Below are positions 1-9,616 of a stretch of 9,616 bases of DNA, one piece after another. Location: assembly GCA_030531025.1 (NCBI GenBank), contig JAUMTV010000114.1:1-9616 (forward strand). Reading direction: 5' to 3'. How positions within the stretch are numbered: position 1 is the stretch's first letter; every line of letters starts with the position of its first letter. Source of the DNA: Turicibacter sp. (GTDB lineage Bacteria > Bacillota > Bacilli > MOL361 > Turicibacteraceae). The position numbers and the translations under genes are program-made. The notes beneath the pieces are model-generated. The model did not search any database. It was not told where the DNA came from and was given only the letters and a program-made list of their open reading frames with translations.

Positions 1-99
1 AGGTTATCCAAAGACTATGCGAGAAAATGTGAAAAATTTTTCGCCATATATATATTGTCGAAAAGGTGAAAAAAAAGAAAATTAAGAGGGTGAATTTAA

Positions 100-405
100 A
101 TGAATTTATTTTTAATCTTATGTATTTTAGGTATAGGGTTAATACTCTTAGGAAAATCAGCAATTAGAGTAAATAAAACCGCACTAGAAGCTAATAAAAC
201 TAATAATTTTAAAGTTTTTGATATTTCTATCTTATGGGGAAAAATTAATATAAAATATGGAAAACTATTATTGATTACAGGGATGTTGGGTGTGTTCTTT
301 TATGATAAATTAGGTTTATTGATGTTGGTAATCATGATTTTAGTTTTAATTTCCTATATTGCAAATTTATTTATTAGTGGATATAAATTTTTGATTCATA
401 CATGA
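100..405 (+). CDS. small hydrophobic membrane protein of unknown function
   Basis: A 101-residue protein with an ATG start preceded by GAGGGTG at 86-92, a good ribosome binding site seven bases upstream. Hydrophobic stretches at about residues 3-18, 54-68 and 70-95 suggest three membrane segments, with a polar lysine- and asparagine-rich loop between the first and second (about 20-53). No catalytic motif is visible. The layout resembles small two- to three-helix Bacillota membrane proteins such as the DUF3784 group, but I cannot assign it to a family. It stands alone: the upstream sequence shows no clear gene, and 35 bases after its stop the first TAGCGGGA core of the hairpin array begins. 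It may be a resident gene or array cargo. I am fairly sure it is coding because of the start context and amphipathic pattern, and unsure of any function. Confidence 0.65.
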   Translation: MNLFLILCILGIGLILLGKSAIRVNKTALEANKTNNFKVFDISILWGKINIKYGKLLLITGMLGVFFYDKLGLLMLVIMILVLISYIANLFISGYKFLIHT

Positions 406-439
406 TAATCTTTACAGCTTTAATATGAAGAACTTATCG

Positions 440-502
440 TAGCGGGATTTTAAAGTGCTATCTGTAATAGTGGTCATATCATTAAACACAAGCATCCCGC
501 TA
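440..502. repeat. minimal core-to-core cassette
   Basis: TAGCGGGA (440-447) and TCCCGCTA (495-502) lie only 47 bases apart with no C or D hairpin between them. It looks like a CED cassette that has lost its interior. The flanking bases (GTAGCGGGATTT and GCATCCCGCTACAAG) match other copies. Confidence 0.6.
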
Positions 503-722
503 CAAGAACTAATCAAATTTCAATGCACATAAAAAAATAATAATCTATGGATAGGCTAATCATGCACTTGCATCATTAGCCTTTTCTTATTAGATGTTTA
601 ATCTATAACCAGGCAATCACTAACCATCCAATCCCTTTATACGCCCCCATCCTATTGATGTGGGGCAGTGAGGGCTTGATGTTTAGTTGCCTACTTAACA
701 AAGATAATTCCTAGTAGCGGTA
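495..722. repeat. AB cassette, copy 1
   Basis: Hairpin A has stem AGGCTAAT/ATTAGCCT (553-560 and 575-582) followed by TTTTC. Hairpin B spans about 619-688, with outer arms CTAACCATCCAATCCC and AGGGCTTGATGTTTAG and an inner CCCC.CATC/GATG.GGGG stem. The right core is altered to TAGCGGTA. Confidence 0.75.
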
Positions 723-983
723 TTACGATACTTAGATATAACCTTAGTACAAAGAGGGCCTTCCATCCCAAACGGTTGCAAGGCAACGATTGGGGATGGA
801 AGATCATCTTATATTCTTTATTTAACAGGGGCTATTATTTATCAAATTAATCTTCTCATACAAGAAAGCATCCTAGTCGTTAGGGGATAAGAAAACCCAA
901 ACGACAGGACTGTGGTTTGGGTATCCTTATGTTTTGAGACAGGATATAAAAGAGAAGTTTGAATAACCAATGCCATCCCGCTA
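715..983. repeat. CED cassette, copy 1
   Basis: Hairpin C (760-802) has outer arms CTTCCATCCC and GGGATGGAAG around the constant GTTGC-AAG-GCAAC tip. Hairpin D has outer stem ACCCAAAC/GTTTGGGT (895-902, 915-922) and inner ACAG/CTGT. The E hairpin position (869-888) is degenerate. Its first 114 bases are almost identical to 3911-4024. Confidence 0.75.
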
Positions 984-1206
984 CCATGCCGCATTAAAAC
1001 TTCATTGTTCACCAGTATCAACAGTAAAAGGATAGGTGAATCATGCTCACACATCATTCACCTTTTCATATTAGATTTTTAGCACTAAAACTATGGTTTT
1101 TACTAACCATCCATCCTTCGAGTTTCCTACATACTGACGTATGTTAGGCGTGGAGTCTTGATGGTTAGTTTCTATGTTGAATAAAGAAGATTTCAAAGTA
1201 GCGGGA
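976..1206. repeat. AB cassette, copy 2
   Basis: Hairpin A uses AGGTGAAT/ATTCACCT (1034-1041, 1056-1063), which differs from copy 1 at two base pairs, both compensated. Hairpin B spans about 1102-1168, with inner stem ACATAC/GTATGT (1129-1134, 1139-1144) and loop TGAC. Confidence 0.78.
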
Positions 1207-1469
1207 AAATTAGTTCTTTACTGAATGTTTATCTTAGTAAATGGTTTCATGAAGTGGCTAACTGTTGCAAGGCAACGATTAGCCCTTCATGATCCTAAAC
1301 AGTTATTTATAAAAATTTTGTTGTTCATAAAAAATTATCACTCTTCAAGTAGAATGATAGTTTGCAAACAATAAGAAAACCAACACGGCACGAGTGCGAT
1401 GTTGGTATCCATTGATCTTTTGAGAATAGATTTAAAAAGCATTAATCATAACCAGGAATGATCCCGCTA
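1199..1469. repeat. CED cassette, copy 2
   Basis: Hairpin C (1247-1292) has TCATGAAG/CTTCATGA outer and GCTAA/TTAGC middle arms around GTTGC-AAG-GCAAC. Hairpin E (about 1337-1362) pairs around CTTCAAG. Hairpin D (1379-1406) has outer ACCAACA/TGTTGGT and inner GCAC/GTGC. One base at 1399 breaks the last outer pair. Confidence 0.78.
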
Positions 1470-1589
1470 CGAGAATTTATTCAATTACATTTTCCCTAAA
1501 TATCAATCCACCTGCGCCACATCGTGCCGATGTTTTGGCCGGGTGGAGTTGCTATTTAGGTGCATTTTTTAATGATGAGTATCCCGCTA
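1462..1589. repeat. B'-only cassette with same-direction cores
   Basis: Two TCCCGCTA cores in the same direction (1462, 1582) enclose one long hairpin, about 1494-1560. Its outer arms are CCTAAATA and CTATTTAGG, its middle arms TCCACC and GGTGGA, and its tip ACATCG/CGATGT. The tip is a compensated variant of the inner B stem. The same arrangement recurs at 4848-4976. Confidence 0.65.
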
Positions 1590-1691
1590 TAATAGAAAAT
1601 GGATAGGCGAATCATGTCGCACATCATTAGCCTTTTCTTATTGGATGTTTAGTTGTTTTTACTTAATAGAGGGGACTTCATAGTAGCGGGA
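1582..1691. repeat. A-only cassette
   Basis: Hairpin A lies at about 1601-1640, with AGGCGAAT on the left arm and ATTAGCCT on the right, so one pair is mismatched (G opposite A). Hairpin B is missing. The short T-rich remainder runs into TAGCGGGA at 1684. Confidence 0.6.
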
Positions 1692-1741
1692 TATTCTTCT
1701 TTGTGGATAAATAATAAATCTTAGTACATAGAAATTGATAA

Positions 1742-1780
1742 AAGCCATCAAGATAATTAGTTCTTGATGGCTTATTTTTT
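1742..1780 (+). terminator. terminator-like remnant of hairpin C
   Basis: A perfect 11-bp stem AAGCCATCAAG/CTTGATGGCTT (1742-1752, 1763-1773) is followed by A and six T, which is a good intrinsic terminator. The linker in front matches the C-hairpin linker at 3445-3507, so this appears to be a C module that lost its GTTGC-GCAAC tip. It would stop any array transcript before the zinc-ribbon gene. Confidence 0.7.
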
Positions 1781-1838
1781 AGGAGATAAAGAAAATGAAT
1801 CAGTGTATTTAAAGACAGTCATATTATAAGGTAAAATG

Positions 1839-1847
1839 TGGTATTAT
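1839..1847 (+). promoter_or_regulatory. possible extended -10 promoter for zinc-ribbon/GNAT pair
   Basis: TGGTATTAT fits an extended -10 element (TGn plus TATTAT). The matching -35 region is poor. It lies about 80 bases before the zinc-ribbon start and after the terminator at 1742-1780, so a promoter is needed hereabouts. Confidence 0.4.
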
Positions 1848-1922
1848 AGAGGTGTAAATTAGGAGCGATTATATTAGAAACTAGTAAATAGGGGGTGATA
1901 GATATTAGAAAGGAGCAAGTTT

Positions 1923-2138
1923 ATGAAAATAACAAAAGTATGTCCCAAATGTAACAGTAAAGATATTATCAGAATCGAAGGAAGTGTAAAAGGTTATGGA
2001 GCAGGTAATAACATTCCTATGGGTGTTACTACTTTCTCTTATATAAAAGTACCACGATATGTATGTTGTGGATGTGGATATGCAGAAGAGTGGATTGATA
2101 TGGATGATACTTCAAGACTAAAAAAGAAATTTAAATAA
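1923..2138 (+). CDS. small zinc-ribbon protein
   Basis: A 71-residue protein with ATG start and AAGGAG at 1910-1915, seven bases upstream. Two metal-binding knuckles are visible: Cys7-Pro-Lys-Cys10 at the N terminus and Cys48-Cys-Gly-Cys51 in a VCCGCGYAEEWID context. Together these form a four-cysteine zinc ribbon. Between them is a glycine-rich, beta-prone stretch. The C terminus is basic (RLKKKFK). Small proteins of this build are common in Bacillota and usually uncharacterised; a nucleic-acid or protein-binding role is possible but unproven. The gene is followed after 26 bases by the acetyltransferase, so the two are likely co-transcribed. It lies between array cores TAGCGGGA (1684) and TCCCGCTA (2737). 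I am confident of the zinc ribbon and not of the role. Confidence 0.85.
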   Translation: MKITKVCPKCNSKDIIRIEGSVKGYGAGNNIPMGVTTFSYIKVPRYVCCGCGYAEEWIDMDDTSRLKKKFK

Positions 2139-2164
2139 TAAAGGGAATTTGCAGAGGTGATAAT

Positions 2165-2677
2165 ATGAATTTAAGAATGGCTAACATTGATGATTTACCA
2201 CAGCTTAAATCAGTATATGAAAAAATAATCTACAATATGAACAAAGATAATATCCAGATCTGGGATGAAATTTATCCATGCGAGTTTTTTTATGATGATA
2301 TTAAAAATAATCGTCTTTATGTTTTAGAGGAAAACAATGAAATAGTTTCGGCTTTTGCTTTGTGTAATTCAAATGCAGGAGCGGAGTATGTGACATGGGA
2401 AAATAAACATGATAAAGCATTGTATCTTGATAGGTTTGGAGTTAATGTCAATTATTCAAGAAAAGGAATTGGCAGTTTAATGCTTAATGAGGCGATTTCT
2501 CTTGCAAGAGATAAGGGTGCTAAATATTTAAGGCTTTTTGTTGTGGATATAAATAAACCTGCGATAAATCTTTATATAAAAAATGGCTTTAAAAGGGTTG
2601 ATGGAATCTATGATGAAATAATTGACGATGATCTTGTATTGCATGAATATGGATTTGAAATAGAAACGTCAATGTGA
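2165..2677 (+). CDS. GNAT family N-acetyltransferase
   Basis: A 170-residue protein, normal length for a single GNAT domain, which transfers acetyl from acetyl-CoA to an amine. The acetyl-CoA pyrophosphate loop (motif A) is seen as RKGIGS at residues 99-104, after the beta-strand FGVNV. Motif B follows as NKPAINLYIKNGF (130-142), typical of the family. The N terminus (LRMANIDDLPQL) is the usual first strand and helix. The substrate cannot be told from sequence; the family includes protein, metabolite and antibiotic acetyltransferases. The start has AGAGGTGA at 2153-2160. It is downstream of the zinc-ribbon gene in the same probable operon. No terminator with a T tract follows; the next candidate is hairpin A of the array at about 2797-2832. 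The family is certain, the substrate unknown. Confidence 0.93.
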   Translation: MNLRMANIDDLPQLKSVYEKIIYNMNKDNIQIWDEIYPCEFFYDDIKNNRLYVLEENNEIVSAFALCNSNAGAEYVTWENKHDKALYLDRFGVNVNYSRKGIGSLMLNEAISLARDKGAKYLRLFVVDINKPAINLYIKNGFKRVDGIYDEIIDDDLVLHEYGFEIETSM

Positions 2678-2736
2678 GGCAATGTTAGGAACACGTATGT
2701 CATTGGATGCGAGTATAGTATTAATACTCATTGGCA

Positions 2737-2970
2737 TCCCGCTACAAGAAACTATTTAACTACATTTATCCTAAAGAAACACACTAAAGCATGGATAGGC
2801 TAATCATGTTGACACGTCATTAGCCTTTTCTTATTTGATTTTTAGCACTAGAACCTTTTATTTATCACTAACCATCCATCCACTTATAGCCCTACATACT
2901 GACGTATGTTTAGGGCGTGTGTCTTGGTGGTTAGTTTGTATGTAATCAAGGTAGCTACAACGTAGCGGGA
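2737..2970. repeat. AB cassette, copy 3
   Basis: Hairpin A is AGGCTAAT/ATTAGCCT (2797-2804, 2819-2826) followed by TTTTC. Hairpin B spans 2866-2936 and has inner ACATAC/GTATGT (2894-2899, 2904-2909), loop TGAC. The copy at 9153-9386 is very similar, including linkers. Confidence 0.78.
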
Positions 2971-3231
2971 GAATCTTTTTTATACCTAGTGATTATCTGG
3001 GTACATAGTTTCATGAAGTCGCTAACTGTTGCTTTGCAACGATTAGCACTTCATGATAGAAACATTTATTTATAAAAATTTTGTTGTTCATAAAAAGTTA
3101 TCACTCTTCAAGGAGAATGATCAATCACAAATCATAAGAAAACCAACACGGCATCGATGCGGTGTTGGTATCCATGATCCTTGTGATACAGATATAAAAG
3201 GGGATTGAACTAATCATGGATTATCCCGCTA
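2963..3231. repeat. CED cassette, copy 3
   Basis: Hairpin C (3011-3056) has outer TCATGAAGT/ACTTCATGA, middle GCTAA/TTAGC and tip GTTGC-TTT-GCAAC. Hairpin E lies at about 3100-3122. Hairpin D (3141-3169) has ACCAACAC/GTGTTGGT outside and GCAT/ATGC inside. Confidence 0.8.
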
Positions 3232-3452
3232 CAAAGAATTATTTACCTACATTTATCCTAAAGAAACACATTAAAGCATGGATATGCTAATCATGCACAA
3301 GCATCATTCGCCTTTTCTTATCGTATTTTCATTCTAAAACAAGTATTCACTAAACATTCAATCCACCAGTGTCACCATACTAGCGTATGGTAAGGCAAGG
3401 GGCTTGATGTTTAGCTGTGGTATTTAATCTGAAAATACTCAAAGTAGCGGGA
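3224..3452. repeat. AB cassette, copy 4
   Basis: Hairpin A (about 3281-3315) is decayed, with left arm ATGCTAAT against right arm ATTCGCCT. Hairpin B (3349-3415) is intact, with inner CCATAC/GTATGG (3375-3380, 3385-3390) and loop TAGC. Confidence 0.72.
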
Positions 3453-3626
3453 TATTATTCTTTATGGATAAATAATAATAAATCTTAGTATCTAGAAATT
3501 GATAAAAGCCTCAACGGTTGCGGAGCAACTATTGGGGCTTTTATCATCATCAACAGAACTATGAATATAAGGAACGTAAATAACGGTTCAGTATTGAAGA
3601 AACTGAACTATTATTTACTCCCGCTA
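3445..3626. repeat. CED-type cassette, copy 4, rearranged
   Basis: Hairpin C (3501-3546) has a different outer stem, GATAAAAGCC/GGCTTTTATC, around GTTGC-GGA-GCAAC. A short hairpin GTTCAGT/ACTGAAC follows (about 3586-3608), then TCCCGCTA. Hairpin D is absent here and appears after the core. Confidence 0.65.
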
Positions 3627-3774
3627 CTAAATAGTATCTTCTTATTAATAAAGAGATTGATATAAAAAGAAAAATAGGAAAACCAAAACGACATGAATTC
3701 ATGTGGTTTTGGTAGCCATGATCTTTTGTAATAGATTTAAAACATGCTAGAAATAAACATGGAATATTCGGCTA
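3619..3774. repeat. D-only cassette
   Basis: Contains hairpin D with ACCAAAAC/GTTTTGGT outside and the palindrome ACATGAATTCATGT inside. It ends in a decayed core, TTCGGCTA. Confidence 0.6.
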
Positions 3775-3918
3775 CCATGAAGCATTCTAACTACATTTAT
3801 CCCTAATAACAGTATAACTAAATATCAATCCACTTAGGCCTACATCCTAGCGGATGTTTGGGGCAGGTGGATTGATATTTAGTTTTATATTTAATCTGAA
3901 AAACTTATTGTAGCGGGA
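3767..3918. repeat. B'-type cassette
   Basis: One long hairpin at 3815-3884 with outer arms AACTAAATATCAATCCAC and GTGGATTGATATTTAGTT, an almost perfect match over 18 pairs. The inner stem is ACATCC/GGATGT with loop TAGC, again a compensated variant of the other B tips. Confidence 0.7.
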
Positions 3919-4024
3919 TTACGATACTTAGATATAACCTTAGTACAAAGAGGGCCTTCCATCCCAAACGGTTGCAAGGCAACGATTGGAGATGGAAGAT
4001 CATCTTATATTCTTTATTTAACAG
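3911..4024. repeat. 114-bp direct duplicate of 715-828
   Basis: Aligns without gaps to 715-828 with two differences by eye: the core base (GGGA here, GGTA there) and one base in the right arm of hairpin C, which weakens that stem here. Similarity stops abruptly after TTTAACAG in both copies. Confidence 0.85.
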
Positions 4025-4047
4025 TTGCTGTTAATTTATCAAAATAA

Positions 4048-4073
4048 CCTAGCTAATGACAGCTAGGCTTTTT
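4048..4073 (+). terminator. intrinsic terminator, plus strand
   Basis: Stem CCTAGCT/AGCTAGG (4048-4054, 4061-4067) with loop AATGAC is followed by C and five T. It would end any rightward transcript of the array half to its left. Confidence 0.7.
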
Positions 4074-4091
4074 CTTTCAGTTTTCAGACAT

Positions 4092-4125
4092 AAAAAAAGA
4101 AGAACAGTTGACTAGGCTGTTCTTC
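4092..4125 (-). terminator. intrinsic terminator, minus strand
   Basis: Nine-pair stem GAAGAACAG/CTGTTCTTC (4099-4107, 4117-4125). The run of seven A at 4092-4098 becomes seven T on the minus strand, so this stops leftward transcription. It faces the plus-strand terminator only 18 bases away. Confidence 0.75.
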
Positions 4126-4245
4126 AACAAACAAAACAAACAAACTAACTAAAAGAGAAATAACAATAAGAGTTATAACTTTTTAATTCGTTACATAAAT
4201 AGTATATCACAATTCATTCGTAGTTACTATATAAAATTATATAAT
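4126..4245 (-). other. A+T-rich gap with possible small-RNA promoter
   Basis: This unique stretch interrupts the array. It includes AAC-rich repeats (ACAAACAAAACAAACAAAC). On the minus strand a -10-like TATACT (4201-4206) would start a transcript near 4194 ending at the terminator at 4092, about 100 nt long. The -35 region is weak, so a small RNA is only a possibility. Confidence 0.25.
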
Positions 4246-4370
4246 TAGCGGGAAACCTCTACGTATAAAACTAGAATCAGAAAAGTTAAACGGCATATCA
4301 TGCCATTTAACTCTCCTTGAATGAATAGCATCTTAGGATACCCAGTTTCTAAACCAAACTCATCCCGCTA
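4246..4370. repeat. small cassette with a single distinct hairpin
   Basis: TAGCGGGA (4246) and TCCCGCTA (4363) enclose one hairpin, about 4285-4311, with arms GTTAAA-GGCAT and ATGCC-TTTAAC. It resembles none of hairpins A to E in sequence. Confidence 0.6.
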
Positions 4371-4592
4371 CAAGTGAGTATCTAACTTCAATAATCCTAA
4401 ACATAAATTAACCAATGGATAGGCGAATCAGATTTCACATCATTAGCCTTTTCTCATTGGATTTTTCATCCATAAATAAGAGTGGTCACTAAATATTCAA
4501 CCCCACCAGTACCTCCCATACTAGCGTATGGTGAGGGTATGGGCTTGATATTTAGTTTTTATATCTAATAGAGATGATACAAAGTAGCAGGA
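4363..4592. repeat. AB cassette, copy 5
   Basis: Hairpin A has left arm AGGCGAAT (4421-4428) and right arm ATTAGCCT (4442-4449), with one mismatch. An extra outer stem CCAATG/CATTGG (4412-4417, 4455-4460) is present. Hairpin B (4486-4558) has inner CCATAC/GTATGG (4516-4521, 4526-4531). The right core reads TAGCAGGA. Confidence 0.75.
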
Positions 4593-4855
4593 CAATTATT
4601 TCTATACCTAGTGATCGTCTTTCTACAGAGGGGATGAAGTGCTAACTGTTGCAGCAGCAAGAATTAGCACTTCATCATTCTAATTCTAAATTTATAAACA
4701 GTTCATAGTTCATAAAAAAACACTCACTCTTCTAAGTGAAATATTTCCTCATAAACAATAGGAAAACCCACACGGCACGAGTGCGGTGTGGGTATCCTTA
4801 ATCAGTTGAAACTCGGATTTAAAAAGCATTTAAACTAATCAGCATTATCCCGCTA
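4585..4855. repeat. CED cassette, copy 5
   Basis: Hairpin C (4633-4675) has an unbroken 13-pair outer stem, GATGAAGTGCTAA/TTAGCACTTCATC, without the bulge seen in other copies; its tip is altered to GTTGCAGCAGCAAG. Hairpin D has ACCCACAC/GTGTGGGT outside and GCAC/GTGC inside. Confidence 0.78.
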
Positions 4856-4976
4856 CAGGAAAATTTCTAACTACATTTCCCCTAACTATCCCTCCACCAG
4901 GGCCTCTATCCTACGGATATTCTTGGCGGGTGGAGTGGCTATTTAGGGTTATTTAATAATCGGATTTATTCCGCTA
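4848..4976. repeat. B'-only cassette with same-direction cores
   Basis: TCCCGCTA (4848) and TTCCGCTA (4969) enclose a hairpin at 4880-4948 with outer arms CCCTAA and TTAGGG, middle CTCCACC and GGTGGAG, and tip ATCC/GGAT. It mirrors 1462-1589. Confidence 0.65.
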
Positions 4977-5092
4977 TAACAGTATATGGATAGGCGAATC
5001 ATGTTCGCACATCATTAGCCTTGTCTTATTGGATTTTTAGCACTAGAACCTTTTGTTACCCAGGTAATAAAGGTAGCTACAACGTAGCGGGA
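4969..5092. repeat. A cassette with truncated B
   Basis: Hairpin A has AGGCGAAT against ATTAGCCT (about 4992-5020). Hairpin B is reduced to a short TTACC/GGTAA palindrome at 5056-5066, while the linkers on both sides match intact copies. This looks like an internal deletion. Confidence 0.65.
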
Positions 5093-5361
5093 AAATCTTT
5101 TCTATACCTAGTGATTATCTTAGTACATAGTTTCATGAAGTCGCTAACTGTTGCTATGCAACGATTAGCACTTCATGATCCTAAAGATTTATTTATAAAA
5201 ATTGAACTGTTCATAAAAAAATAATCACATCTTCTAGAAGAATGATAAATCACAAATAATAAGAAAACCAAAACGACATGAATTCATGTGGTGTTGGTAT
5301 CCATGCCTTTATAGTGATAGAGATATAAAAAATAATTGAAATAACCATAGACATCTCGCTA
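5085..5361. repeat. CED cassette, copy 6
   Basis: Hairpin C (5133-5178) has TCATGAAGT/ACTTCATGA and tip GTTGC-TAT-GCAAC. Hairpin E is around 5228-5247. Hairpin D has left arm ACCAAAAC against right arm GTGTTGGT, one mismatch, as if halves of two D variants had been joined. The right core is TCTCGCTA. Confidence 0.72.
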
Positions 5362-5526
5362 CAAGGAACACCCTAACTGCATCTTTCCATAAAAAAACTA
5401 AACAGACAATTATACCTATGCCTTAGCCTTACGGTGGGGTCCCCACACGCTTTATCTCCACCTTGAGTGGGGTATGGGGCAGGTGCAATAATTGCAGTTT
5501 AAAAATACGATCATTTTATAGCGGAA
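5354..5526. repeat. enlarged B-type cassette at array edge
   Basis: Between TCTCGCTA and TAGCGGAA lies a large imperfect hairpin, about 5388-5500, with outer arms near AAACT and AGTTT. Its inner palindrome GTGGGGTCCCCAC (5434-5446) could alternatively pair with GTGGGG at 5467-5472. Both cores are decayed, as expected at the edge of an array. Confidence 0.5.
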
Positions 5527-5596
5527 AAATATAAGTTCCGATAAAAGTTCTTTGATGACTAAGTTTGATTTTGAAAATATTAAAGTAATTTTAGAG

Positions 5597-5625
5597 TTTA
5601 CATTAAAGGTTAGGGATGGTATACT
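5597..5625 (+). promoter_or_regulatory. promoter of the P-type ATPase gene
   Basis: TTTACA (5597-5602) and TATACT (5620-5625) are separated by 17 bases, and TGG directly precedes the -10, giving an extended -10. Transcription should begin near 5632, leaving a leader of about 200 nt that contains the riboswitch. This is the best promoter in the window. Confidence 0.75.
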
Positions 5626-5656
5626 TTTTAAGTATTAATTAAATTGAATTTAGATA

Positions 5657-5744
5657 TTCCTGAGGGAGTAGTTTGCATAGAAATATGTGGTTAGGTCAAC
5701 ATATTGACTTCGGTCTGGTCTAATCTTAAAAAACGAGACTCATG
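5657..5744 (+). promoter_or_regulatory. probable yybP-ykoY Mn2+ riboswitch aptamer
   Basis: The leader contains GAGGGAGTAG (5662-5671), close to the conserved GGGGAGUAG of the yybP-ykoY L1 loop. A GNRA hairpin CATA-GAAA-TATG (5676-5687) follows. Then comes a P3-like arm: lower stem GGTTAG/CTAATC (5689-5694, 5720-5725), internal loop GTCAACATATT opposite TGGT, and upper stem GAC-TTCG-GTC. The 3' side CGAGAC (5734-5739) matches the second conserved L1 strand, and TGAG/CTCA (5661-5664, 5739-5742) closes P1. This family senses Mn2+ and is known to control P-type ATPases such as Lactococcus YoaB. A P4 arm is missing. The family call was made by eye, without a covariance-model search. Confidence 0.72.
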
Positions 5745-5781
5745 TATAGTTTTTTGCTATACATGTGGTCTCGTTTTTTTT
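5732..5781 (+). terminator. riboswitch expression-platform terminator
   Basis: Stem AACGAGAC/GTCTCGTT plus CATGTATAG/CTATACATG, 17 pairs with a small bulge and loop TTTTTTG, followed by eight T (5774-5781). Its left arm reuses the aptamer's 3' strand (CGAGAC, CTCA), so aptamer and terminator cannot form together. Metal binding should therefore permit read-through into the ATPase gene. Confidence 0.85.
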
Positions 5782-5815
5782 ATTTTTTGTTGCAGCTAAA
5801 TTTGATTTAAAGGAT

Positions 5816-5823
5816 AGGAGGAG
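5816..5823 (+). promoter_or_regulatory. ribosome binding site deciding a TTG start
   Basis: AGGAGGAG, a near-perfect Shine-Dalgarno sequence, has its GGAGG (5817-5821) seven bases before TTG at 5829. No in-frame ATG or GTG is better placed, so TTG is the likely start. Confidence 0.85.
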
Positions 5824-5828
5824 AAGAT

Positions 5829-8549
5829 TTGAGATTTTATTCAAAAACAATTGATGAAACATTAGAAAATTTAGAAGTTAATGTTTCTAAAGGATTATCT
5901 TCAAATGATGTTAAACAAAGGCAAGAAAAATACGGATTAAATGAGTTTACGCCACAAGCCAGTGCAACATTTTGGGATAACTTAAAAGAGAGCTTAAGTG
6001 AACCTATGATTATTATATTAATAGTTGCGGCACTTATTAGTGCCTTAATCGGTGAGGTTACAGATTCTATTGGAATTATCGTAGCGATTATTATTGGAGT
6101 AGGCATTGGACTAATAACAGAAGGAAAATCTAAAAAAGCTGCTGATGAGTTATCAAAGTTAACGGAGAATATAGAGGTTAAAGTCCTTCGTGATGGTCGT
6201 GTGCAACAAGTTCCAAAAAATCAATTAGTACCAGGTGATATTGTTTATATTGAAACTGGAGATTTAATACCAGCCGATGGGCGTGTCATTCATGATATTA
6301 ACTTAAAAGTTCGTGAGGATATGTTAACAGGTGAATCAGATGATGTAAGTAAATCAAGTCACCTTGTTATTGAAATGGAATCAATCCGAAAAAATCATGA
6401 ATTGATTCAACAAGATCCTGTTCCAGCCAAGCAATGTAATATGGTTTTTGGTGGAACACTAGTAGCTTATGGTCGTGGAACGATGGTAGTGACGTCCATT
6501 GGAGATGCAACAGAAATGGGGCATATTGCGAAAAATCTATCTGAGTCAGACGAAGAAACCCCTCTTCAAATTAAATTAGGTGGATTAGGGGCAACAATTA
6601 CAAAAATTTCTGGTGCGATAGCAGGAATCTTATTTATTTTAATAATTGTAAACATGGTAAAAAAGAATATTTTAAATATAGATTCAAGTTCAGTCGGAAG
6701 TTTCTTTACATCATTAGCACCGATTAAAACAGCCTTTACTACTTGTGTTGCTTTAATTGTTGCAGCAGTGCCTGAAGGTCTTCCAACAATGATTAATATT
6801 ACATTAGCTATGACCATGCAAAAAATGGCTAAAATAAATGCCTTAGTCACAAAGAAAGAGGCTTGTGAAACAATAGGTTCGGTTTCAGTTATCTGTTCGG
6901 ATAAAACAGGAACATTAACAGAAAATCGTATGAGTGTTGAAGTAGCTTATGTTGATGGAACCTATGTGGAAACAGGAAATTTAGACAGTCATAGTTATTT
7001 TATGGAGAATTGCTTAGTGAATTCTACGGCTGATATTGAGAAAATTGATAATCAAGTAAAATATATCGGAAGTGCTACAGAGTGTGCCTTGCTAGTATAC
7101 AGTCAACCTATAGATTATGTAGCTATGCGTCAAAATACCGAGCTAGTTGCACAGACACCATTTAACTCAGAATTGAAGCGTATGCGAACGATTATTAAAA
7201 AAGGAAATCAACATATTTTATTAGTAAAAGGTGCTCCTGAAGTTTTACTAGATAATAGCCAGTTTTTTCAGCAGGATAATCAAAAAGTAATTCTAACAGA
7301 AGAGTTAAAATTAGAGATTCTTTCAGAAATTGAAAAATTACAGGTGAAATCCATGCGAACACTTGGATTTGCTTATCGTAATATTGAGGAAAGTGATTTA
7401 GAGGAATCAATTCCTGATAATGGATTAATCTTTAGTGGATTTGTTGGAATTAAAGATCCATTGCGTGCTGATGTCAAAGAATCTGTTATGCTTGCTAATG
7501 AGGCGAGTGTTGAAGTTAAAATGTTAACAGGGGATAACATTAATACAGCTCGTGCTATCGGAGAAGAATTAGGATTATTAACTAACGAATTTAGAGCAGT
7601 TGAAGCAACATATATCGATACTTTAACAGATGAGGAGTTACAACAAGAAATCAAAACCATTTCAATTGTAGCAAGATCAAAGCCAGACACAAAAATGCGA
7701 ATTGTAGCAGCTTTACAAGCCAATGGAGAAGTTGTTGCAGTAACAGGAGATGGAATTAATGATGCTCCAGCTCTTTCGAAAGCAGATGTTGGAATTGCGA
7801 TGGGAATTTCGGGAACAGAGGTTTCTAAAAGTGCAGCCGATATTATCTTAACCGATGATAGTTTTTCAACCATTATCCATGGAATTCAATGGGGGAGAGG
7901 AATCTATGAAAACTTCCAACGTTTTATTCAGTTCCAGTTAACGGTTAACATTATTGCCTTCTTAATTGCAATCATTTGTCAGCTAACAGGAGAAGAAATG
8001 CCATTTACAACGATTCAACTGTTATGGGTCAATATTATTATGGATGGCCCACCTGCATTAGTACTTGGATTAGAACCAGCAAGACGTCATATTTTAACTC
8101 GTAAACCTATTTCACGCCGTGCTAATATTATTACGAATTCAATGAAAATAACTATTTTATCAAATGCTATTTTTATTACTTTTGTTTTATTACTTCAATT
8201 AAAAGCTAATATTTTGAATGCAACATCAGCTGAAATGGGAACAGTTATGTTCTCAATCTTCGCTTTCAGTGCATTGTTCAATGCATTTAACTGTCGTGAA
8301 TTTGGAACAGACAGTATTATTCCAAACTTTATGAAAAATACATTGGCCATTAAGGTTATATTATGTACAGGAATAGCACAAATTTTATTTACCCAAATCT
8401 TTAGAGAGTTCTTTAACTCAGTTCCATTAAGTTTCATGATGTGGGTGAAAGTAGTGGCCTTAGCTTCAATAATTATTATTGTTAATGAGATAGTCAAATT
8501 TATCTTAAGAAAAGTGAAACGTATACAAATCAAAATAGATAATTTCTAA
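5829..8549 (+). CDS. PMCA-type P-type Ca2+/Mn2+-exporting ATPase
   Basis: A 906-residue, full-length P2-type ATPase that pumps a divalent cation out of the cytoplasm using ATP. In order: an N-terminal cation-ATPase domain (about 5-70); M1-M2 (about 57-97); the actuator domain with TGES at 167-170; M3-M4 with the ion-binding PEGLP at 315-319; the phosphorylated Asp358 in CSDKTGTLT; nucleotide-binding KGAPE at 467-471; MLTGDN (565-570) and TGDGINDAPAL (639-649); then M5-M10 to about 892. Ligands of a single site are present: Glu316, Asn735 and Asp739. The M5 position that carries a second-site Glu in SERCA is Ala710, as in plasma-membrane pumps, predicting one ion per ATP. There is no calmodulin-binding tail. 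The Mn2+ riboswitch-like leader suggests Mn2+ export, alone or with Ca2+. Related riboswitch-controlled pumps are Lactococcus YoaB and pneumococcal MgtA/CaxP. The start is TTG. No T-tract terminator follows directly. Confidence 0.95.
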   Translation: MRFYSKTIDETLENLEVNVSKGLSSNDVKQRQEKYGLNEFTPQASATFWDNLKESLSEPMIIILIVAALISALIGEVTDSIGIIVAIIIGVGIGLITEGKSKKAADELSKLTENIEVKVLRDGRVQQVPKNQLVPGDIVYIETGDLIPADGRVIHDINLKVREDMLTGESDDVSKSSHLVIEMESIRKNHELIQQDPVPAKQCNMVFGGTLVAYGRGTMVVTSIGDATEMGHIAKNLSESDEETPLQIKLGGLGATITKISGAIAGILFILIIVNMVKKNILNIDSSSVGSFFTSLAPIKTAFTTCVALIVAAVPEGLPTMINITLAMTMQKMAKINALVTKKEACETIGSVSVICSDKTGTLTENRMSVEVAYVDGTYVETGNLDSHSYFMENCLVNSTADIEKIDNQVKYIGSATECALLVYSQPIDYVAMRQNTELVAQTPFNSELKRMRTIIKKGNQHILLVKGAPEVLLDNSQFFQQDNQKVILTEELKLEILSEIEKLQVKSMRTLGFAYRNIEESDLEESIPDNGLIFSGFVGIKDPLRADVKESVMLANEASVEVKMLTGDNINTARAIGEELGLLTNEFRAVEATYIDTLTDEELQQEIKTISIVARSKPDTKMRIVAALQANGEVVAVTGDGINDAPALSKADVGIAMGISGTEVSKSAADIILTDDSFSTIIHGIQWGRGIYENFQRFIQFQLTVNIIAFLIAIICQLTGEEMPFTTIQLLWVNIIMDGPPALVLGLEPARRHILTRKPISRRANIITNSMKITILSNAIFITFVLLLQLKANILNATSAEMGTVMFSIFAFSALFNAFNCREFGTDSIIPNFMKNTLAIKVILCTGIAQILFTQIFREFFNSVPLSFMMWVKVVALASIIIIVNEIVKFILRKVKRIQIKIDNF

Positions 8550-8679
8550 ATTTGAGCCTATAAGCTAATCATTAGAAAGTGCAGGTGTATAGATTTTTCT
8601 ATTTGAGTTGATGATTTAAATTAGATTGTCTCTTAGTTGAAGTCAGTGAGCTATTAGATTATTTCATTATAGGAGATAT

Positions 8680-8703
8680 GTCTTTGAGTAGAGTGTCAAA
8701 GAC
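8680..8703. other. hairpin between ATPase gene and array block 3
   Basis: Perfect eight-pair inverted repeat GTCTTTGA/TCAAAGAC (8680-8687, 8696-8703) with loop GTAGAGTG and no T tract. It abuts the first A hairpin of block 3, where the usual TCCCGCTA core is missing. The 8550-8679 stretch before it holds nothing I recognise. Confidence 0.5.
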
Positions 8704-8707
8704 AATC

Positions 8708-8895
8708 AATGGATAGGCTAATCATGTCAGTCAAGCATAGACATCATTAGCCTTTTCCTATCCTATCTTTCATCCTTAAATAGAGTCATCACTAACCATT
8801 CAATCCTCCTAATTTCCTACATACTGGCGTATGTGCGGGTGGAGTCTTGGTGGTTAGTTTCTATACTGAATAAAGAGGGTTTCAAAGTAGCGGGA
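8708..8895. repeat. AB cassette, copy 6, lacking left core
   Basis: Hairpin A has AGGCTAAT/ATTAGCCT (8715-8722, 8746-8753), a stem lengthened by ATGTC/GACAT, and TTTTCC behind it, so it may end the ATPase transcript. Hairpin B (about 8790-8858) has inner ACATAC/GTATGT with loop TGGC. Confidence 0.72.
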
Positions 8896-9160
8896 AAATG
8901 ATTTCTCTACTTAGTGATTATCATAGTACATGGCTTTCATGAAGGTGCTAACTGTTGCAAGGCAACGATTAGCGCTTCATGATCCCCGATATTTATTTGT
9001 AAAAGTTTTACTGTTCATAAAAAAAATAATCACATCTTTAAGGATATTGATCAATCACAAATAATAAGAAAACCAACACGGCACGGGTGCGGTGTTGGTA
9101 TCCATAATATTTTGAGAAAGATATAAAAGGAGATTGAACTAATCAGAAGCTATCCCGCTA
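8888..9160. repeat. CED cassette, copy 7
   Basis: Hairpin C (8937-8982) has TCATGAAG/CTTCATGA and tip GTTGC-AAG-GCAAC. Hairpin D has ACCAACAC/GTGTTGGT outside and GCAC/GTGC inside, loop GG. Confidence 0.8.
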
Positions 9161-9386
9161 CAAGGAATTATTTAACTACATTCCACCCAAAGAAACATAA
9201 TAAGGCATGGATAGGCGAATCATGTTCACACATCATTCGCCTTTTCTTATTGGATTTTTAGCACTAGAACCTTTTATTTATCACTAACCATCAAGCCACC
9301 TATTGCCCTACATACTGGCGTATGTTAGGGGCGTGTGTCTTGGTGGTTAGTTTGTATGTAATCAAGGTAGATACACAGTAGCGGGA
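9153..9386. repeat. AB cassette, copy 7
   Basis: Hairpin A is fully paired as AGGCGAAT/ATTCGCCT (9213-9220, 9235-9242), the compensated counterpart of the TAAT/ATTA copies. Hairpin B (9282-9353) has inner ACATAC/GTATGT, loop TGGC. It closely matches copy 3 at 2737-2970. Confidence 0.8.
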
Positions 9387-9616
9387 AAATCTTTTCTATA
9401 CCTAGTGATTATTTTAGTACATGGTTTTATGAAGTCGCTAACTGTTGCTTTGCAACGATTAGCACTTCATGATATAAACATTTATTTATAAAAATTTTGT
9501 TGTTCATATAAAGTTATCATTCTTCAAGTAGAATGATAAATCACAAATAATAAGAAAACCAACACGGCATGAATGCGGTGTTGGTATCCATGATCTTTTG
9601 GAAATAGATTTGAAAA
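9379..9616. repeat. CED cassette, copy 8, cut by window end
   Basis: Hairpin C (9428-9472) has GTTGC-TTT-GCAAC. Hairpin E is clearest here, TTATCATTCT/AGAATGATAA (about 9516-9540). Hairpin D has ACCAACAC/GTGTTGGT outside and GCAT/ATGC inside. The right core lies beyond the window. Confidence 0.78.

Follow-up and report, generated by a model that had tools for sequence, protein, structure and literature searches.

Arrays of alternating hairpin modules with shared inverted cores in a Turicibacter lineage: a tentative comparison with BIMEs and dif modules

Bacterial interspersed mosaic elements (BIMEs) are described, in the excerpts of PMC2817692 and PMC3733652 used here, as groups of repetitive extragenic palindromes (REPs) whose orientation alternates and whose stems show compensatory changes, together with RAYT transposases. 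Acinetobacter dif modules (pdif sites, XerCD) fall, according to an excerpt of PMC13141974, into two classes that alternate because their boundary sites are inverted; they carry genes, and decay of a site leads to fused modules. Stem-loop families are treated in PMC2267715, likewise used in excerpt. Here we analyse a 9,616-nucleotide stretch of Turicibacter sp. DNA (GCA_030531025.1, contig JAUMTV010000114.1, positions 1-9,616, forward strand; hereafter the window), in which two classes of hairpin-bearing modules alternate between inverted copies of a 9-bp core. The lineage name 'Turicibacter' rests on the label of a metagenome-assembled genome, G008 (locus L061). We tentatively favour the view that the array is a BIME-like, dif-module-like mosaic of palindromic modules that takes up much of the non-coding DNA in cargo zones of this lineage, several of which are part of mobile islands, and is turned over on folded single strands.

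Alternating modules between inverted cores

The core, GTAGCGGGA or its complement TCCCGCTAC, was found 23 times in the window at no more than one mismatch, compared to 0.54 copies expected, and none of 200 shuffled sequences reached this number. Successive cores face opposite ways in 20 of 22 pairs, the alternation being broken at 1462-/1582- and 3910+/4245+. The interval from core - to core + is referred to as an X unit (AB in an earlier sequence-only reading of the window) and that from core + to core - as a Y unit (CED in that reading). Since X and Y alternate, every core is common, in inverted arrangement, to two neighbours. Six AB units with both cores at one mismatch or less measure 228-234 bp between outer edges, and one further AB, at about 8700-8895, is missing its left core; six full CED units span 271-279 bp by the 9-mer and a seventh is truncated at the window end. 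Core counts and unit sizes thus bear out the array of AB and CED cassettes with inverted cores that had been proposed. Its non-coding part, put at about 5.5 kb, measures about 5.1 kb and takes up most of the intergenic space. The hairpin order was said to be fixed, which is contradicted by units of BA order with an additional internal core, by B, C or D-type hairpins standing alone and by a mini unit (Table 1). A single orientation had also been claimed; it holds for the order of units and not for the hairpins: A, read on the + strand, is of the same type as D read on the - strand.

Similar arrays are present in three of eight genomes of the order, referred to as G878, G866 and G842. When five array stretches and the window were taken together, 149 core-to-core intervals were obtained: 63 X (-+), 60 Y (+-), 17 of type -- and 9 of type ++, so that 123 of 149 alternate. 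Interval lengths recur, 217-229 bases core to core in 20 of 63 X and 262-265 bases in 14 of 60 Y intervals, and there are further recurring sizes. What comes next to a core on its Y side is drawn from a limited set of fillers or genes.

The stems show compensatory change. In hand-cut sets of eight or nine copies, RNAalifold analysis revealed that hairpin B has two-sided changes at 7 of its 21 pairs, hairpin C at 6 of 17, hairpin D at 6 of 12 and hairpin A at 2 of 14; hairpin E is weakly conserved. Covariance models built from nine and eight window copies were searched against both strands of the window and 18 loci, with 54 matches to core plus C and 72 to B plus core. In these larger sets hairpin B, represented by 71 distinct rows, has two-sided changes at 19 of its 21 pairs, and hairpin C, with 50 distinct rows, at 13 of 17. 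Cells altered on both sides number 214 in B and 132 in C, compared to 73 and 42 in shuffled alignments (neither value was reached in 500 shuffles), the size of the effect being inflated because the alignments are model-fitted and contain reverse-strand matches and related rows. The signal is lost when the 3' partner is slid by 1-3 columns. In hairpin C the entire stem is replaced at 714, 1198, 3444 and 1683.

A selected transcript of one strand would be expected to give more G-U than A-C mispairs on that strand, and mispairs of both kinds were scored alike. A set of 51 X and 38 Y units supplied 108 non-redundant hairpins, with 28 G-T and 33 A-C mispairs (p 0.61), in a test of uncertain power as it was run without a known RNA as positive control. 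By class, G-T and A-C numbered 9 and 2 in X (p 0.07) and 19 and 31 in Y (p 0.12); the window alone gave 22 and 33 (p 0.18). Stem mismatches on the + strand of X units are pyrimidine-pyrimidine in 58 cases and purine-purine in 5, while Y units have 40 purine-purine and 11 pyrimidine-pyrimidine mismatches, as if they were read from the opposite strand. Covarying stems free of a single-strand wobble bias favour a module structure that acts at the DNA level.

Hairpin A on the + strand and hairpin D on the - strand have a common frame: GGATA, stem, loop, stem and TTTTCTTAT, commonly with a C-C mismatch in the middle of the stem, and a T-rich tail closes both. In a pool of the window and its relatives that includes related copies, the TTTTCTTAT tail was present on the + strand of 17 of 51 X units and on the - strand of none, compared to 1 and 20 of 38 Y units, respectively (Fisher p 6e-10, kinship of copies ignored). 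Hairpins A and D are, therefore, one type in opposite orientation, and core - is flanked in typical copies by the same hairpin type pointing outward on both sides. Such an outward-pointing pair recalls the BIME arrangement.

The likeness to BIMEs extends to the regular spacing of alternating palindromes, to the mosaic build of the arrays and to the compensatory stems. The array modules, however, are 220-280 bp long with a common 9-bp core, compared to 20-40 bp for REPs, and they cluster in a small number of zones, where genes lie between them. The GTAG or CGTC tag at the foot of REPs was not seen at hairpins A and D, which are flanked by GGATA and TTTTCTTAT; the GTAG of the core lies tens of bases off. 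Y1 genes, the RAYT type, were detected in five of the eight genomes of the order, none at an array locus. Membership among the BIMEs thus fails on two tested features, REP size and tag and the RAYT gene. With dif modules the arrays share two alternating classes between inverted sites, as is evident from the excess of +- and -+ over ++ and -- intervals, but here a 9-bp core flanked by hairpins forms the boundary, and non-coding filler modules are frequent. A second conserved arm, as in the XerC arm, 6-bp spacer and XerD arm of pdif, did not stand out around exact cores, though no dif model was run. The array appears to resemble BIMEs and dif modules in function; membership in either is not established.

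Module re-use and the islands beside the arrays

Near-identical modules are re-used beside different neighbours. We compared 16 module pairs of at least 88% identity (88-100%; not all of them independent) and took as background a flank identity of 0.62 or less, the 95% level of random pairs. Twelve of 32 flanks were at background immediately past the core, and in 3 of 16 pairs this was true of both sides. In a separate observation, 8 of 45 identity breaks were located at a distance of 66-76 bases from a core on its Y side and none at 6-65 bases there. This position is about the apex of the hairpin C next to core +, and the breaks could have arisen by template switching at the hairpin apex.

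The cargo of the arrays is oriented one way. Of the open reading frames (ORFs) of at least 100 aa in five zones and the window, called mechanically and with two IS256-type transposase copies excluded, 43 of 45 run in the island direction. Identical 1342-bp copies with a Transposase_mut (IS256-type) gene are found in an array zone of G878 (C1, 454892-456233 and 464509-465850). Some of the genes in X intervals follow lost cores, e.g. in window 5354-8887.

Seven array zones were delineated: about 93-114 and 445-472 kb in G878, 654-664 and 2001-2016 kb in G842, and 650-668, 690-728 and 948-955 kb in G866. Four of them (the first of G878, both of G842 and the first of G866) adjoin an island module with a common gene order. 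In the island direction this consists of serine-recombinase genes or matching DNA, a repressor, a Cro-like gene, a 108-aa protein, a rolling-circle Rep and, later, an amidase; the G878 island additionally has SSB, a terminase small subunit (TerS) and a holin. Family searches, which were done on the G878 genes, identified two large serine recombinases, an S24/HTH repressor, a PF23343 Rep (replication initiation in PHROG), SSB, TerS, holin and amidase, while counterparts in the other islands were assigned from similarity of their DNA, from length and from the starts of the sequences. The Rep protein was found in three of the eight genomes, the same three that have strong arrays, at four places that all adjoin an array. 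Its relatives are in phage records at up to 38.5% identity (17 records) and in one plasmid record. A position of all arrays in islands was considered and not borne out. The 445-472 kb zone of G878 holds a DUF2922 segment that is common to the four islands, suggesting that this zone may be an island remnant.

The G866 island (about 629.4-668.9 kb; C1 about 629377 and 668859; loci L116 and L117) splits a gene that is intact in G878. An end of a G878 island lies, by eye, in a different gene, at a motif resembling the Walker A codons where the G866 island ends. The idea that the core is the attachment site of the serine recombinase was not borne out in the G866 island, the single one with both ends compared. 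A core near rep was likewise considered as the Rep origin and rejected: it is coding (x-Ala-Gly-Phe near the ORF start in three islands) and is missing in G842A. Upstream of rep there is a conserved hairpin motif, TTARCGRRCTTGTAT...TATTAACAAG (L107, 5380-5840; same place in L112, L115 and L116), which, judged by its sequence, is possibly a better candidate for the Rep origin than the core.

Other genes were noted in and around the islands. PADLOC reported type II and IIG restriction-modification proteins in the G878 island (L108, 5054-9442) and Pbe/Ssp-type proteins in that of G866 (L117, 6883-16042). A JetC3 (Wadjet-type) protein is encoded left of an array zone (L109, 3039-7451; G878, 433-437 kb); the same stretch occurs in G866 outside its island, so JetC3 is not array cargo. 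A G842 gene with weak matches to HNH endonucleases (one copy tested) adjoins the arrays in both zones (C1, 662215-663003 and 2001259-2002047), with 97% identity over 868 bp.

The window and G878 share blocks of sequence, the longest of 558 bp at 96.6% identity, and we infer that a close relative is the source of the window. In a pattern search of 296 genomes in the class of G008, three had core pairs (1, 4 and 8). When a 464-bp query was searched against the eight genomes of the order at E<=1e-4, 28 matches were obtained in G878, 20 in G866, 13 in G842 and one in G887, the last being 39 bp long (locus L124) and not confirmed by the covariance models. In Clostridia and kin, R1 was found in none of 8, 71 and 206 genomes, the two larger sets being a weak test with 56 and 19 candidates scored per genome; the core pattern was found in none of 391 genomes and the DNA query in none of a further 246. 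Matches to the DNA query in 7 of 247 and 19 of 225 genomes of the same group covered 22-65 bases at E >=1.6e-5 and were judged to be chance. A DNA search of plasmids and phages gave no match. Core-pair patterns in viral contigs yielded 5 stretches in one search and 0 in another, and as none of the five holds an array, these too were attributed to chance. The exact A-hairpin pattern had no occurrence in IMG/VR or in GTDB r220 contigs; since this exact form is present in 13 of 142 loci (some overlapping), the r220 result means that the form is lacking or was missed, and not that the array is absent lineage-wide.

Readings of the arrays

The mosaic reading proceeds from the observed location of the arrays, their module classes, the compensatory stems, the inverted kinship of A and D, the re-use of modules and the one-way cargo. 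The hairpins would work as folded DNA. Island replication by the rolling-circle Rep together with SSB would expose hairpins and cores on long single strands. Modules, with the genes between them, would then be duplicated, removed or reordered as strands are exchanged or templates switched at hairpins or cores, with Rep or some other enzyme as a possible helper. A more far-reaching version is possible but doubtful: a gene-cassette platform of a new kind, in which rolling-circle Rep/SSB/serine-recombinase islands keep and rearrange one-way cargo between alternating hairpin modules, with exchange on folded single-stranded DNA at the inverted 9-bp cores. Should exchange really take place at the cores, a gut lineage would possess a cassette system distinct from integrons and dif modules, partly tied to islands with restriction-modification and Pbe/Ssp-type genes. 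Even as passive repeats the modules would be long, strongly covarying sequences not caught by Rfam, and as they are concentrated in few zones per genome, a comparison of strains would directly test their spread and function. The sequence-only reading had raised a composite non-autonomous mobile element. Re-use of modules beside new neighbours and the mobile-island module at four of seven zones partly support this, but self-transposition of a module would be conjectural and no transposase is tied to the modules. There was no sign of modules being remnants of insertion sequences, although no dedicated search of the window for such sequences was made.

Several observations weigh against the mosaic reading. 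When near-identical alignments end inside an array, 36 of 45 ends are away from cores. The other nine are no more than 10 bases from a core centre, compared to 3.8 expected (p 0.011), which counts in favour of the reading but is suggestive only because alignments run or snap to the conserved core edge. Whole X units resemble reverse-complemented Y units just slightly more than they resemble Y (mean local scores of 19.2 and 18.2, and 17.5 for shuffled Y; 23 X and 20 Y). Genes occupy 14 of 60 Y and 8 of 63 X intervals, a modest difference, and we do not claim that they are confined to Y, for which these counts give no clean support. The 690-728 kb zone of G866 is mixed, with 19 genes on + and 11 on -. 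No island module was detected beside the 445-472 kb zone of G878 or the 690-728 and 948-955 kb zones of G866, in the stretches examined. The co-occurrence of Rep and arrays is based on eight genomes, and each of two G842 Rep matches contains one TAG. The ends of the G866 island are located, by eye, at Walker A codons with inverted TTTTCCGTTTTCA arms, without the array core. Since the core copy beside rep is coding and is lacking from G842A, it is unlikely to be the origin used by Rep. Finally, no enzyme has been tied to the core.

The strongest alternative, though itself rather unlikely, is that the modules are passive: palindromic spacers and two-way terminators that ordinary homologous recombination and replication slippage have multiplied and shuffled without a dedicated enzyme, quasi-palindrome template switching keeping their stems perfect. 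Terminator-like sites are more frequent in the window than in shuffled sequences (9 compared to 4.3 +- 2.0), A on + and D on - have T-rich tails, and the lack of a wobble bias, the many alignment ends away from cores and the three of seven zones without an adjoining island module are all consistent with passive spread. It is less easily reconciled with the preservation of core spacing and alternation across genomes and with the abrupt drop of identity past the core of modules that are themselves 88-100% identical.

Tandem large RNAs had also been suggested; in such a reading every cassette would be a structured RNA that its core pair closes. The strong covariation speaks for it, and many of 23 folded pieces formed multi-branched structures with a closing core stem. 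However, the reverse strand folds about equally well, G-T mispairs do not exceed A-C ones in the comparison made without a known-RNA control, promoter-like sites are below the shuffled level (29 compared to 47.7) and there are dozens of diverged copies. Rfam gave no match in the window at gathering score; at E<=5 there were 10 rows, the best at E 0.15 and every one below its gathering score. We consider large RNAs unlikely. Within the searches made, the earlier statement that the cassettes cannot be matched to a named repeat or RNA family stands, both for Rfam and for the literature, where words and 9-mers retrieved no account of this repeat among the matches listed.

Another conceivable role of the modules is that of multiple single-strand origins (sso), at which synthesis of the second strand would be primed as the island replicates by the rolling-circle mode. 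The published layout, as given in an excerpt of PMC4598088, comprises RSB, hairpins and CS-6 (TAGCGT), and TAGCGG of the core resembles the last of these; hairpins indeed lie near the TAGCG in an element that, in G878, encodes both Rep and SSB. The agreement with CS-6, by eye, is five of six bases only, RSB was not searched for, and many copies with paired inverted cores in every module are foreign to the sso layout. We regard this explanation as distinctly improbable.

An integron-like array with folded attC-type sites and a tyrosine integrase would share one-way cargo and variable inner palindromes between conserved cores with the present modules, but it is scarcely credible, given inverted modules of two classes, a core unlike the attC boxes RYYYAAC/GTTRRRY and no IntI match (TIGR02249) above cut-off in any of the eight genomes. 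Weaker tyrosine-recombinase matches to this model were obtained in all eight (best 90 of 265 bits) and likewise in 14 control genomes, none of them in an array zone among the matches listed. The staphylococcal cassette chromosome and other serine-recombinase islands have large serine recombinases and cargo with restriction genes. In this they are similar to the islands described here, which differ by hairpin-core arrays between the cargo, a phage-type repressor, a rolling-circle Rep, TerS and lysis genes. With regard to a miniature inverted-repeat element of a DDE transposase, inverted cores are present, adjacent modules share one core and no target-site duplication was seen by eye, in a comparison that was not systematic. 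The arrays match no repeat or RNA family examined, and might amount to a novel means of gathering genes.

Features of the window

Four likely genes were identified in the window, all on the + strand. The first precedes the array and the other three interrupt it. Their coordinates and those of the modules are collected in Table 1.

Table 1. Genes and array units of the 9,616-nucleotide window
Feature	Coordinates	Strand	Remarks
ORF, 101 aa	100..405	+	without family; 3 database relatives, none named
Mini unit, 65 bp, core + (439) to core - (495)	439..503	+	interval type (56 and 58) found twice more in G878
AB unit, X type	495..722	+	core - to core +
CED unit, Y type	714..984	+	hairpin C with second stem sequence
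AB unit	976..1206	+	one A-stem pair altered on both sides
CED unit	1198..1470	+	
BA unit, reversed order	1462..1691	+	additional core 1582-1590
C only	1683..1790	+	terminator-like hairpin (1742-1773) in place of stem
ORF, 71 aa	1923..2138	+	cysteine-rich, zinc-ribbon-like by eye; family search without match
GNAT acetyltransferase, cargo gene	2165..2677	+	
AB unit	2737..2970	+	
CED unit	2962..3232	+	
AB unit	3224..3452	+	
Split CED variant	3444..3775	+	inner core at 3619
B-only unit	3767..3918	+	left core decayed, 2 mismatches
C-only piece	3910..4036	+	window 3869-4036 and 673-840 are 87% identical
D-type hairpin only	4245..4371	+	stem sequence altered on both sides
AB unit	4363..4592	+	97% identity to G878 module C1:94175, left flanks unrelated past core
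CED unit	4584..4856	+	
BA unit	4848..5092	+	internal core at 4969 decayed
CED unit	5084..5362	+	
B-type unit	5354..5526	+	right core (5518) decayed
PMCA-type calcium P-type ATPase, cargo gene	5829..8549	+	
AB unit without left core	8700..8895	+	
CED unit	8887..9161	+	
AB unit	9153..9386	+	89% identity to module at 2737, left flanks unrelated past core
CED unit	9378..9616	+	truncated by window end

The GNAT protein is 90% identical to a Clostridium bornimense protein, and the ATPase is at most 69% identical to named Clostridium and Peptostreptococcaceae proteins among the matches listed. Judging from these similarities, the two cargo genes of the window may be of Clostridia origin.

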